The notes under the pieces: generated by a model | Told to the model about the DNA's origin: nothing | The model's input: the letters and a program-made list of their open reading frames with translations, nothing else | Databases searched by the model: none | Made by a program: the position numbers and the translations under genes | Shown here: piece by piece, positions 9,723-61,963 of the stretch | How the letters are laid out: the number at the start of each line of letters is the position of its first letter | Numbering within the stretch: the first letter of the stretch is position 1 | Assembly (NCBI RefSeq): GCF_026586675.1 | Contig: NZ_JAODIX010000032.1 | Span: 1-64,000 of the forward strand | Direction: 5' to 3' | Length of the DNA: 64,000 nucleotides | Source of the DNA: Halorubrum yunnanense | GTDB lineage: Archaea; Halobacteriota; Halobacteria; Halobacteriales; Haloferacaceae

Positions 9723-10001
9723 ATGGCAGACCGCACGCGAGCGCACGTGTACGTCTCGGGCCGCGTCCAAGGCGTCTACTACCGCGCGACAACGCGCGAC
9801 ACCGCCCGGGAGAAGGGGGTCGACGGCTGGGTGCGCAACCTCGACGACGGGCGCGTCGAGGCCGTCTTCGAGGGACCGACGGACGCGGTCCGCGAGATGG
9901 TCGCGTGGTGCGAGACCGGGAGCAAGGCGGCCGACGTCGACGACGTCGACGCGACCGAGGAGGAGCCGGAGGGGCTGGACGGGTTCGAGGTCCGGTGGTA
10001 G
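9723..10001 (+). CDS. acyP: Acylphosphatase
   Basis: 92 residues, the normal length. The acyl-phosphate loop GRVQGVYYR (with the catalytic Arg) and the downstream GWVRNLDDGRVEAVFEG with the catalytic Asn are both present. It hydrolyses carboxyl-phosphate bonds such as acetyl phosphate or 1,3-bisphosphoglycerate in the cytoplasm. Start chosen at 9723 on the TATA spacing and family length. Convergent with the next gene, 20 nt apart. Confidence 0.93.
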   Translation: MADRTRAHVYVSGRVQGVYYRATTRDTAREKGVDGWVRNLDDGRVEAVFEGPTDAVREMVAWCETGSKAADVDDVDATEEEPEGLDGFEVRW

Positions 10002-10020
10002 GCGGGCGGTTCCGGCGGGC

Positions 10021-10482
10021 TCAGGGCGCCACCGGATCGCCCGGTGAGTCGCGGACGCCGAGCTCCGCTAGCGCGCGCAACACCACGATCGCCTCGACGA
10101 CGTCGCGCTCCTCGGTGTAGGGGTCGTCGACGGCGTCGAGGGTCGCCTCGGCCTCGGCGGCGAGCCGAGACTCCAGCTCCGTCTGGTCGGTCTCGGGCTT
10201 GGTCGCCGACAGCAGCGCCTCGTGGTCCTCGCGTAGGTCCAGCGAGACGTGCGCCGCGTTGCACCGCGAGAGCGGGTGGGTATCCATCTCGATGGCCAGG
10301 TCGCTCACGAGCTCCCAGTCGTCGGCACAGAAGCGCAGCGTCACCGCTCCGACGACGTCGCGCCACGAGATCGGGCCGCCGTTCGCCATCAGCCCGATCG
10401 CCCGCGGCGGCACCGCGATCCGGGTGTGCGTGTCGTCGCGGCCGCACAGGCAACAGGGGGTGTTCTTCAGTCCGGCGTACAC
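10021..10482 (-). CDS. Conserved haloarchaeal protein with CCLC motif, unknown function
   Basis: 153 residues. The N terminus carries CCLCGRDDTHTR, a possible zinc-binding knuckle, and a later Cys (about residue 52). The rest is acidic and probably helical, ending in a short Pro/Gly tail. I do not recognise a named family. The start is a GTG at 10482. The upstream TATA-like sequence (10547-10556) coincides with the left edge of the composite repeat, so the repeat may supply its promoter. Confidence 0.6.
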   Translation of the reverse strand: MYAGLKNTPCCLCGRDDTHTRIAVPPRAIGLMANGGPISWRDVVGAVTLRFCADDWELVSDLAIEMDTHPLSRCNAAHVSLDLREDHEALLSATKPETDQTELESRLAAEAEATLDAVDDPYTEERDVVEAIVVLRALAELGVRDSPGDPVAP

Positions 10483-10548
10483 GCCGATTTGTACGGGCCG
10501 GAGAGTGGTGTGCGTTTCGGCGCCGAGAGCGGACTGCCGACGACACGG

Positions 10549-10840
10549 TATATAAACGAACGCGGTGCGGTGGCGCGCGCCTCCGAGCGGTCGCCCTCGG
10601 CGGCCGCGAGGAGCGCGTGCGAGGGAGTCGGTCGTCCGGAGCGAAGCGGAGGACGACTGACGAGGCTGGGGAGGTGTGAGGTGCGGTTGCGGTGCGCTGC
10701 GGGGCGGGACTCAAAGGGGCAGCCGCGAGGCGGGCGCAGGCGATGTAAGCACCGCAACGAGGGAGCGGTAGCGACCGAGTGAGGAGCGCAGCGAGCGTGC
10801 GCCCGCCTCGCGGCTGGGGCTTTGGGAGAGTTCGCCGCCG
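10549..10840. repeat. Composite repeat element, copy A
   Basis: This stretch shares ordered blocks with 59911-60106. Both start with TATAAA(C/T)GAA, continue after 16-18 nt with GGTGGCGCG(C/T)GCC, and contain an identical 25-nt block beginning CGAGGCTGGGGAGGTGTGAG (10661-10685 here), then a GGGACT-type box. It holds an exact 18-bp inverted repeat (10721-10738 with 10798-10815, loop 59 nt). No credible protein is encoded. It may be a non-coding RNA gene, a small non-autonomous element or a structural repeat; I recall similar strings as common in Halorubrum genomes but cannot verify that here. Confidence 0.75.
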
Positions 10841-10924
10841 CTCCAGTCTAATAAGTTTATAACCGAGCGGCTGGGGCTTTGGGAGAGTTCGCCGCCGAGT
10901 TGGTGAAAATTTATAAATAGACGC
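10811..10924. repeat. 57-nt tandem repeat, box plus TATA-like unit
   Basis: Two units of 57 nt. Each begins with an identical 30-nt box starting CGGCTGGGGCTTTGGGAGAG (10811-10840 and 10868-10897) and ends with an AT-rich TATA-like run (near 10850-10859 and 10907-10919). The arrangement looks like duplicated promoter-plus-transcript starts on the minus strand, or duplicated ends of copy A. It lies just 3' of the HxlR gene. The remaining bases to 10976 hold another TATA-like run (10942-10951) and nothing else I can name. Confidence 0.75.
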
Positions 10925-10976
10925 CCACAGAACCAACTATCACTTATAAACAACCAACGACCTCGCAGACGAATTC

Positions 10977-59274: not shown

Positions 59275-59898
59275 ATGGCGTCGAAGCGCTCGCTGGCGAC
59301 GAAGCTCGGCGTCGTCGCCGGGTTCGACGAGCCGAGTCTCGCGCTCGAACAGTACCCCACGCCGCCCGACCTCGCCGCGCACGTCGTCCACCTTGCGGAC
59401 CTCCACGGCGACGTCGACGGCCGCACCGTCCTCGACCTCGGCACCGGCACGGGGATGCTCGCGCTCGCCGCCGCCCTGCGCGGCCCCGCCCGGGTGTTCG
59501 GGGTCGAACTCGACCGCACCGCGTTGACCACCGCGGCCGCCAACCAGCGCCGGGTGGCCGCGAGCGCCCCCGTTCACTGGGTCCAGGCTGACGCGACGCG
59601 ACTTCCCCTCTCCGTCCCGGACCCCGTCACGGTCGTGATGAACCCCCCGTTCGGCGCGCGGGACGGGAACCGGAACGCCGACCGGGGCTTCCTGGCGACG
59701 GCGAGCCGCGTCGCGACCGTCTCCTACTCGGTCCACAACGCGGGCAGCGAGGCGTTCGTGGAGGCGTTCGCGGCCGACAACGGCGGCGAGGTGACCCACG
59801 CGTTCGCGGCCGACTTCGCGATCGACGCGCAGTTCGACCACCACGAGGACGCGTCGCGCGACATCGACGCCGAAGTGTACCGGATCAAGTGGGCCTGA
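59275..59898 (+). CDS. METTL5-family N6-adenine rRNA methyltransferase
   Basis: 207 residues. SAM-binding VLDLGTGTGMLALAAA, acidic ribose contact VFGVELD, and the catalytic NPPFGARDGN motif of N6-adenine methyltransferases. N-terminal SLALEQYPTPPDLAAHVV matches METTL5, which methylates a small-subunit or large-subunit rRNA adenine; archaeal orthologues are widely predicted. Second gene of a two-gene operon. Confidence 0.87.
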   Translation: MASKRSLATKLGVVAGFDEPSLALEQYPTPPDLAAHVVHLADLHGDVDGRTVLDLGTGTGMLALAAALRGPARVFGVELDRTALTTAAANQRRVAASAPVHWVQADATRLPLSVPDPVTVVMNPPFGARDGNRNADRGFLATASRVATVSYSVHNAGSEAFVEAFAADNGGEVTHAFAADFAIDAQFDHHEDASRDIDAEVYRIKWA

Positions 59899-59910
59899 CG
59901 GCGACGATCG

Positions 59911-60106
59911 TTTATAAATGAATGATTCGGTGGCGCGTGCCGGTGAGCGGCCGGAGGGCCGCGGACCGCACGCGCGAGGGAGCCGCGAACAGAGAGGGAC
60001 CGGTAGTCACTCTCGCAGCCGGCGCTCCGCGCCGGCGAAGTGAGCGACGAGGCTGGGGAGGTGTGAGGTGCGTTGTTGTGCGGGGTGGGACTTTGGGGAC
60101 CTTCAC
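59911..60106. repeat. Composite repeat element, copy B
   Basis: Begins TATAAATGAA (59913-59922), then GGTGGCGCGTGCC (59929-59941), and contains the 25-nt block CGAGGCTGGGGAGGTGTGAG... (60048-60072) that is identical to copy A, followed by a GGGACTTTGGGGACCTTC box (60086-60103). About 190 nt, non-coding. It sits between the methyltransferase gene and the 3' end of the rhomboid gene (minus strand), just as copy A sits at the 3' side of the HxlR gene (minus strand). Confidence 0.75.
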
Positions 60107-60118
60107 CGCGACTCCCCC

Positions 60119-61963
60119 CTACTGCCGTCCCTCGTATCGCTCTCGCGTCGCGATCCGCACCCGGGTCTCCCCGCGCTCCGCGAACACGGCGTCCTCCTCG
60201 TGGACGAGCGTCACCCCCCGTAGCGTCACCGACTCGTTGGCCGCGGGGAGCACCGACCGTTCGGTCTCGCCCTCGTACGCCACGCGCAGTTCGAACCCGC
60301 CCTCCACGGCCGCGACCGTGACGTTCCGCCCGTCGATCCGCGGCTCCGCCCGCGCCGACTCGCTCGTGAACAGCGTCGAGCGCGTCTCGTTCCGGACCGC
60401 GTCGACCCGGTACGTCGGGCCACCGTTCGCCGCGACCCAGCCGACCCGCTGGACCCAGACGGTCTCGCGCCAGCCGGTCCCGCCCACGTCGACGGCGCGG
60501 TAGCCCCAGAAGGCGAGGTTCCCGCGCGAGACCGCCGTGGTCCAGATCTCCCGGTCCGCGTTCTTCACGATCACCCCCGAGGTGTTGACGCTCGTCGAGC
60601 GGCCGAACGCCCGGACGTCGACGACGTTCACCGTCCGGTCCTCCACGTCCTCCGCGTACGTCACCTGGTACCCCTCGACTTCGACCGGATCGCCCGGGAG
60701 GTCCCCGTCGCCGACGGCGACGAGGTTCGGGACCACCCCCGGGCCGGCGACGACCGCCAGCGCCGACGCGAGCAGCAGGAGCCCGACCGCGGCCGGCGTG
60801 GCAGAGCGGATCGCCCCGCGGACCGTCGCGGACTCCGGCACGGCCAGATCGGGGCGCAGCGGCTCGTCTCGCCCCGCGACCGCGAGGGCGACGACCGCCG
60901 CGAGGACCGCGAGCAGGCCGAGGCCCACGGCCCGGTACAGCTCGTACCGCTGGTTCCCGAGATACCAGTACACCGCCCAGAGCCGGCGCGAGGCGCCGAA
61001 GAGGAGCACCGCGCCGAACGCGGCGAGCGCCGTCGTCCGTCGGCCCGCGCCCGCCTCGTCGACGTCGGCGTCGCCCCCGCGTCGCCGCCGGACGAGCCAG
61101 GCCGCCGCGAGGGCCCCGGCGATGAGCCCGAGCGCGTGGCCCTGGATCGCCACGTTCGCCCATCCCGGCGGGCCGTAGAAGCCGCTCGCCTCGGCCGTGA
61201 CGACTGGGTTCCGGAGCGTCTCGGAGGCGACGTCCAGCAGCGTCGCGCCCGTCAGCGCCGCGATCGTTCCGACCGGGTAGAAGACGAGCGCGAACCCCCA
61301 CAGCGCGAAGACGACCCCCGAGAACCCGATCACCGGTCCCAGCGCGAACAGCGCGGAGACGACCCCGAACGCCGCCATCGCTCCCGGCACGACCGCGAAC
61401 GCGCGGACGTAGGGGCTCTCGCCGAGCGAGTCGCCTTCGGCGAGCGACGCGAGCGCCGAACGGGCGACGCGCCCCGGCTCCGACGCGGCGAGCCCCTCCG
61501 CGCGGACCCGCCGCAGCGACTCCCGTGACGGGAGCGCGGATCGCAGCGTCCCCGTCTCGTCGTCGACTTCGCGACCGCCCGGAAAGTGCCCGTACGCGTA
61601 CTCGGCGACTCCGCCGGCGACGAGCGTCGACAGGAGGTTCCCGGTGATGTGCCCCCGGTTGGCGTGCGCGAAGCTCGACCAGAGGAGTCCCTCCGGGTAG
61701 AGGTACGACCACGAGCGGAACGGGATCACGACGGGCCGATCGGGGTTCTCCAGCCCGCTCTGAACGAAGAGGTACACGCAGATGACGCCGGCGACGGCGA
61801 CGAGTGTCCCCCACGGCACGCCGAGCAGGAAGCGCGAGCGGAGCGCCCGCGTCCACGCGCCGCTCGGGCGGTCCGTCTTATAAGCGACCGCGAGCGCGAC
61901 GGCGACGAGCGCGCCGCCGACCGCGAGGTGGGCGGCGTCCGACGTCAGCGCCTCGGCGACCAT
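60119..61963 (-). CDS. Rhomboid family intramembrane serine protease with large C-terminal domain
   Basis: 614 residues. Multi-helix membrane domain with LWSSFAHANRGHITGNLLSTL, the GxSx nucleophile region VIGFSGVVFALWG and IQGHALGLIAGAL with the catalytic His; these are rhomboid hallmarks. About residues 335-425 add further membrane helices. The last 190 residues (from about 425) are an extracytoplasmic-looking beta-rich domain (VEVEGYQVTYAEDVEDRTVNV, WRETVWVQRVG) not usual in rhomboids. Start at 61963 chosen over an upstream TTG; TTGATATGCGG lies about 28 nt upstream. Confidence 0.88.
   Translation of the reverse strand: MVAEALTSDAAHLAVGGALVAVALAVAYKTDRPSGAWTRALRSRFLLGVPWGTLVAVAGVICVYLFVQSGLENPDRPVVIPFRSWSYLYPEGLLWSSFAHANRGHITGNLLSTLVAGGVAEYAYGHFPGGREVDDETGTLRSALPSRESLRRVRAEGLAASEPGRVARSALASLAEGDSLGESPYVRAFAVVPGAMAAFGVVSALFALGPVIGFSGVVFALWGFALVFYPVGTIAALTGATLLDVASETLRNPVVTAEASGFYGPPGWANVAIQGHALGLIAGALAAAWLVRRRRGGDADVDEAGAGRRTTALAAFGAVLLFGASRRLWAVYWYLGNQRYELYRAVGLGLLAVLAAVVALAVAGRDEPLRPDLAVPESATVRGAIRSATPAAVGLLLLASALAVVAGPGVVPNLVAVGDGDLPGDPVEVEGYQVTYAEDVEDRTVNVVDVRAFGRSTSVNTSGVIVKNADREIWTTAVSRGNLAFWGYRAVDVGGTGWRETVWVQRVGWVAANGGPTYRVDAVRNETRSTLFTSESARAEPRIDGRNVTVAAVEGGFELRVAYEGETERSVLPAANESVTLRGVTLVHEEDAVFAERGETRVRIATRERYEGRQ

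Follow-up and report, generated by a model that had tools for sequence, protein, structure and literature searches.

The 64,000-nt window analysed here, the whole stretch of Halorubrum yunnanense DNA under study (GCF_026586675.1, contig NZ_JAODIX010000032.1, positions 1–64,000, forward strand), contains two copies of a repeat that is probably best explained as a high-copy, dispersed element that is non-autonomous and folds at the RNA level. According to this explanation, one strand of a ~260-nt core would adopt, most likely as RNA, a conserved fold of several helices, and the core would have spread as cargo between imperfect inverted arms, in one lineage within the ends of IS5-family elements. 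Copies would insert into intergenic sites, usually behind genes, where the arms then decay and the core is kept, and they would trade hairpin modules by ectopic recombination or by conversion between conserved blocks. In a transcript of its own or within a 3' untranslated region, the core may fold and act in cis on neighbouring messages; alternatively, a protein may bind to it by way of its invariant unpaired blocks. The original prediction had described the pair as a candidate non-coding RNA or non-autonomous element. Both halves of this description apply, the former on account of covariation, the latter on account of empty sites, inverted arms and IS5-like outer ends. Lack of further copies and of covarying pairs had been named at the time as what would refute it; both were found, and in these two respects the refutation failed. 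Overall, that first interpretation proved partly supported, as detailed below.

Two copies in the window and the family behind them

Copy A consists of a full-length core with two tail units, all on the plus strand. A TATA-like motif (TATATAAACGAA, 10549–10560), which keeps its place in orthologous copies and has a partner in the 3' arm, marks the inner end of the 5' arm. The structured core (10567–10838) extends from GCGGTGGCGCG to TTCGCCGC and comprises helix P1 (10573–10620, alignment helices 1 and 2) with a CGAG/CGAG tandem-GA step and an inner hairpin, hairpin P2 (10627–10661), which is a site of module exchange, the invariant block GACGAGGCTGGGGAGGTGTGAGGTG (10659–10683), also kept in other families, and the 3' domain P3 (10711–10826, alignment helices 3–8), in which CAAAG..CTTTG and CAGCCGCGAGG..CCTCGCGGCTG are arranged around a tandem-GA ladder. 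A 57-bp tail unit (AGAGTTCGCCGC..TTTATAA..GGCTGGGGCTTTGG, 10826–10882) represents a second copy of the 3' end and is followed by a probable 3' arm (10883–10955) with TTTATAAATA (from 10910) and CTTATAAACA (from 10943). Copy B (59899–60109, plus strand) is a shortened element whose start directly adjoins the stop codon that ends the gene at 59275–59898. It retains a 5' arm remnant (GCGACGATCGTTTATAAATGA, 59901–59921; complete arms carry the motif at their inner end), the P1 domain (59927–59997) and the invariant block (60046–60070, identified by pattern match), and ends in a junction of CGGGGTGGGACTTTGG and TTCACCGC (60081–60109) that results from loss of the P3 domain. Copy B had been regarded as an independent composite; it is instead an internal deletion, in which GGGTGGGACT is joined to CTTTGG and ~110 nt are lost. 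A covariance model of the 5' domain recognised both copies (E 8e-14 for 10567–10681 and E 5.5e-8 for 59927–59997) and gave no further match below E 0.05 in the whole window.

The sequence landmarks that had been listed for the two copies are all present: the TATA starts (TATAAACGAA at 10551, TATAAATGAA at 59913), the 13-nt box (GGTGGCGCGCGCC, 10569–10581; GGTGGCGCGTGCC, 59929–59941), the identical block CGAGGCTGGGGAGGTGTGAGGTGCG (10661–10685 = 60048–60072), whose identity reaches 2 nt further in the 5' direction, and the GGGACT and GGGGCTTT boxes. The 18-bp inverted repeat noticed in copy A corresponds to hairpin P2 (10627–10637 with 10651–10661), and the duplicated box-plus-TATA unit to the 57-bp tandem (GGCTGGGGCTTTGG at 10812 and 10869).

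With up to 3 mismatches, the 25-nt block GACGAGGCTGGGGAGGTGTGAGGTG has 90 matches in the genome of H. yunnanense and its reversed pattern has none, which argues against chance occurrence. At three loci of this draft assembly (L007, L008, L028), N runs interrupt core hairpins, and the true copy number is probably slightly higher. A slightly shorter form of the block gave about 14–180 matches in each of 22 Halorubrum relatives, and matches in named records belong to Halorubrum, some Halobellus and other Halobacteriales. The 5'-domain covariance model identified relatives in 55 of 243 genomes and in 15 of the 78 genera of the order, with as many as 50 matches in a single genome outside Halorubrum (E 0.01). 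At 30 of 40 loci from other genera the 25-nt block recurs with at most 2 mismatches, usually preceded by GGCGCG, a hairpin and GAGGGA, and P2 takes the form of an ordinary hairpin or of a GA ladder; a copy on a Halobaculum plasmid shows the whole architecture, with GAAAG/CTTTC in place of CAAAG/CTTTG. The window gave no Rfam match at the gathering threshold, copy A none up to E 10, a tRNA search found none, and phage and viral collections contained no match to the repeat. Likewise, no description of the family was found in the openly licensed full texts searched. As far as these searches reach, the repeat is undescribed in Rfam and in the literature.

Architecture and covariation of the core

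A full core reads, in its 5' half, GCGGTGGCGCG, P1 with the inner hairpin, GAGGGA, the variable hairpin P2 and the 25-nt block, and in its 3' half the G-rich linker GGGGTGGGACTCAAAGGGGCAG, the long P3, CTGGGGCTTTGG and TTCACCGC, with P3 enclosing a ladder of two-base steps parted by GA/GA pairs. The 3' end of the core is often repeated in tandem units of 54 or 57 bp, of which there are up to five, and the 57-bp spacing is exact in several loci. At L027, L002, L009 and L024 the 57-bp unit is present two to five times, near-identical within a locus and different between loci, as if locally homogenised. Several copies (G040 C74 38405–38661, that is L136, and L056, L139, L234) have the inner part of the 3' domain turned round within the helix arms that enclose it. 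Double-hairpin modules of about 43–55 nt, composed of a stem-loop, a short linker (often GCAG) and another stem-loop, occur in both orientations at several variable core positions (L010, L012, L093, L097, L058, L112).

RNAalifold predicted 49 pairs for 58 diverse copies, 33 of them with compensatory, i.e. two-sided, changes; in P1 (columns 9–26 with 40–60) such changes affect 11 of 15 pairs. For quantification we used 45 pairs, leaving out four near-constant RNAalifold pairs inside the 25-nt block; 33 of these 45 show two-sided change. Here, 96.2% of cells were paired as compared with 28.8–43.5% when partners were slid, and 337 two-sided cells compared with 90.2 in shuffles; on every measure the outcome was 0 of 500 shuffles, with related copies inflating the cell counts. 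A candidate closing helix, P0 (GCGGTG/CACCGC), had 86.5% of its cells paired, yet this was not above shuffles and the helix was dropped. Compensatory changes beyond controls, as looked for in a structured RNA, were thus found, and a single-stranded DNA fold would give equal covariation.

The two strands differ in their folding potential. In each of the 58 copies the plus strand had a lower free energy than its complement, so the structured molecule is probably a plus-strand RNA. At pairs with a Watson–Crick consensus, G.U combinations outnumbered A.C combinations by 60 to 23, although the per-pair sign test (14 versus 6, p = 0.12) was not significant. Relative to shuffled sequences, the fold of copy A had a z value of −5.9 on the plus and −4.2 on the minus strand, and that of the shortened copy B was unremarkable (z −1.4). 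Taken at the level of predicted folds, the one-sidedness and the conserved unpaired blocks favour RNA as the folded molecule, probably read from the plus strand.

Arms, spread and exchange between copies

Syntenic comparison of related genomes revealed that some core sites are empty in relatives. Imperfect inverted arms (GATCGATAGCGGGAGTG.. / ..CACTCCCGCTATCGATC) flank 51 copies, mostly from G014 and its relatives, so terminal inverted repeats of the MITE type around a non-coding body characterise a subset of the family. In H. yunnanense itself the arms are decayed in most copies, which mostly retain arm remnants only, and the left arm has two matches in this genome compared with 52 in G014. 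Among the G014 loci found by their arm, 30 of 30 examined contained the core, and in none of these 30 was a transposase present between the inner arms, the core being the only content.

Outside the arms lies sequence common to an element family with the ends GGCTCTGTTGAAATCC, and these ends enclose some of the cores, mainly in G014 and relatives. Core-less members of this shell family carry small lipoprotein or membrane genes (L395, L397, L398, L319, L334, L477; genomes G011, G014, G018, G005). One of them, L477, contains an IS5-family transposase (NF033579, 211 bits) between the outer ends, beside the cargo gene; the shell had first been judged from its ends to be IS6, an assignment abandoned when the transposase turned out to be IS5. 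Two core-less members are bordered by 8-bp target duplications (AAACGATC, ATCTGACC). No target duplication was seen around three core-holding shells, and no clean case around any core. Core-less shell elements and core-holding ones share their ends only, and L477 is devoid of the core; no sequence shared between the core and the IS was found. Since in one lineage the core and its arms lie within IS5-family ends, transposases of this type probably mobilised it in trans. Empty sites, terminal inverted repeats and IS5-like ends together indicate that copies have spread, and we infer that in the G014-type lineage the core was carried by IS5-type transposition. At L067 (G054) and L101 (G011), outer arm sequences occur alone and meet at TATA-like repeats, between which recombination may have removed the core.

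Individual sites have different histories. More than half of the 30 genomes read have a copy in the copy A slot, and the arms there are shared, indicating that copy A is old; the copy B slot is filled in about 5 of the 30, once in opposite orientation. Orthologues at the copy A slot (0.789 alike) are no closer to each other than paralogues are (0.779). At a second site, G011 and G014 are identical in the flanks and in the first half of the core, but carry different modules from a conserved block onward. Orthologous copies thus appear to have exchanged hairpin modules, a sign of conversion between copies. Inter-copy conversion with breakpoints in shared blocks would be the simplest reading of these alignments; alternatively, saturation under a fixed consensus might explain the divergence of orthologues. 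The original proposal that selection or conversion keeps the blocks agrees well with this patchwork exchange of modules at orthologous sites.

Genomic placement, rival explanations and known repeats

Placement was analysed in two deduplicated samples of copies, with gene calls from a simple home-made codon model. Copies lie between genes, avoid divergent spacers and are enriched between convergent genes (69 of 178 copies, 39%, versus 123 of 775 background spacers, 16%; p = 1e-10, and p = 1e-5 against a length-weighted background). That copies A and B share their orientation and both adjoin a minus-strand gene on its 3' side can be explained by this enrichment and does not extend to a family rule: in tandem spacers the two orientations were found 44 and 36 times (p = 0.43). 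An apparent orientation rule relative to neighbouring genes was an artefact of counting copy A orthologues and vanished on deduplication.

The repeat sits on the main chromosome and almost never on plasmids. The secondary replicons of two genomes yielded 0 copies in 400 kb versus 21 in 393 kb of chromosome of other genomes, the chromosomal stretches being a non-random sample chosen around copies A and B. For G018, with 128 matches in its genome, ~10 copies were to be expected across the 240 kb read from its secondary replicons, and none was seen. BLAST of a plasmid collection returned one Halorubrum copy, at settings that recover 89 of 95 own copies. The IS5 shell element was found on 40 plasmids, so the scarcity cannot be put down to poor sampling of mobile DNA in general. 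For a mobile element, near-absence from plasmids and viruses is unusual and counts against our preferred explanation, as do the failure to find a transposase between the inner arms or a clean target duplication around a core.

A role as DNA would also fit the chromosome restriction, and the main rival, unlikely on balance yet the strongest of its kind, builds on this. The core would act as single-stranded or cruciform DNA, its palindromes and tandem-GA hairpins serving as REP/BIME-like sites for chromosome proteins, and the chromosome-only distribution would reflect a role in chromosome organisation. Besides the replicon counts, with a single Halorubrum plasmid match set against 40 plasmids bearing the shell element, the inverted inner segments of the 3' domain and the modules in both orientations are in line with events at the DNA level. 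If both strands mattered equally, however, the excess of G.U over A.C and the one-strand folding would be unexpected. Unpaired blocks kept in one orientation across families also count against this rival. A bolder and rather improbable version extends to the entire class: a haloarchaeal structured nucleic acid, selected onto chromosomes and off secondary replicons, would mark or organise the chromosome via ~100 RNA or DNA folds built on tandem G.A ladders.

We consider it improbable, to a slightly greater degree still, that all or a subset of the copies are host genes for stable trans-acting RNAs whose inverted arms serve as promoters. Conserved unpaired motifs across several families and the long retention of copy A at one site would suit such genes, as would a TATA-like motif that precedes the box by 12–16 nt in 81 of 189 copies and had been suggested to start a stable RNA. 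The motif is, however, part of the two-sided inverted arms, no more than 104 of 189 copies have it in the 60 nt upstream, and at the distance customary in archaea transcription would begin within helix P1; on these grounds it was rejected as a promoter of a core RNA. Many copies are, moreover, shortened, internally inverted or devoid of the motif, and site occupancy is variable, as seen at the copy B slot. Equally doubtful is the notion of an inert fossil, according to which decayed miniature transposons would display covariation because hairpin modules are copied by conversion, with the fold itself unselected. Frequent module exchange and the decay of arms in most own-genome copies would be compatible with it. 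Against it stand two-sided changes that occur pair by pair within conserved helices, including the 2-bp steps between GA pairs, and the maintenance of the same blocks in other families. Furthermore, 69 of 78 own-genome copies (88%) keep at least 10 of 11 P3 pairs, as compared with 62% when arms from different copies are combined. The dispersed element with an RNA-level fold remains the reading that we favour.

Comparable repeats are known from bacteria. The BOX repeat of pneumococci is modular. Like BOX, RUP and SPRITE of Streptococcus pneumoniae, the haloarchaeal repeat is a high-copy, intergenic sequence with strong secondary structure, a likeness by description and not by sequence; unlike them, it is archaeal, has a larger core, occurs in many genera, shows extensive compensatory change and leaves plasmids nearly free. 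In PMC3049150, the pneumococcal elements are described as parasitic, as likely to affect co-transcribed genes and as almost entirely absent from other streptococci. REP, BIME and REPIN sequences (PMC3733652, PMC12306157, PMC3116915) are likewise extragenic, palindromic and preferentially situated near gene ends, and both chromosome-organisation and RNA roles have been proposed for them. REPs are units of 20–40 bp with GTAG or CGTC tags that are associated with RAYT transposases (PMC3733652); such a tagged 20–40 bp palindrome is not present in the 260-nt multi-helix core, which differs from REP/BIME also by its inverted arms. In the main text of PMC3733652 and PMC12306157, no word begins with 'halo'. 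Roles in nucleoid condensation have been proposed for REP DNA and for a REP-containing RNA (PMC12306157), and these are the nearest functional precedent for a chromosome-organising reading, by way of analogy and not as evidence. With MITEs the repeat shares its short, non-coding nature, inverted terminal arms and the lack of an internal transposase, but it differs in its structured and conserved core, in the lack of a clean target duplication and in leaving plasmids and viruses nearly free. The Halorubrum IS5-family element (L477; NF033579), whose ends GGCTCTGTTGAAATCC enclose some cores, is by contrast itself core-less and common on haloarchaeal plasmids.

In most Halorubrum genomes searched, one strongly structured element is thus present in tens to well over 100 copies. 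As RNA, the core would constitute a large new archaeal RNA class with sufficient sequence variety for a fold solved by covariation; as DNA, it would be an archaeal counterpart of REP/BIME whose chromosome-only distribution is directly testable. On either reading, hundreds of natural insertions are available for studying how repeats affect neighbouring archaeal genes. The repeat also readily accounts for assembly gaps and spurious open reading frames in haloarchaeal genomes. In the window, long spurious frames run through both cores on the minus strand (9779–10936 and 59724–61856), and gene callers could call them as proteins.
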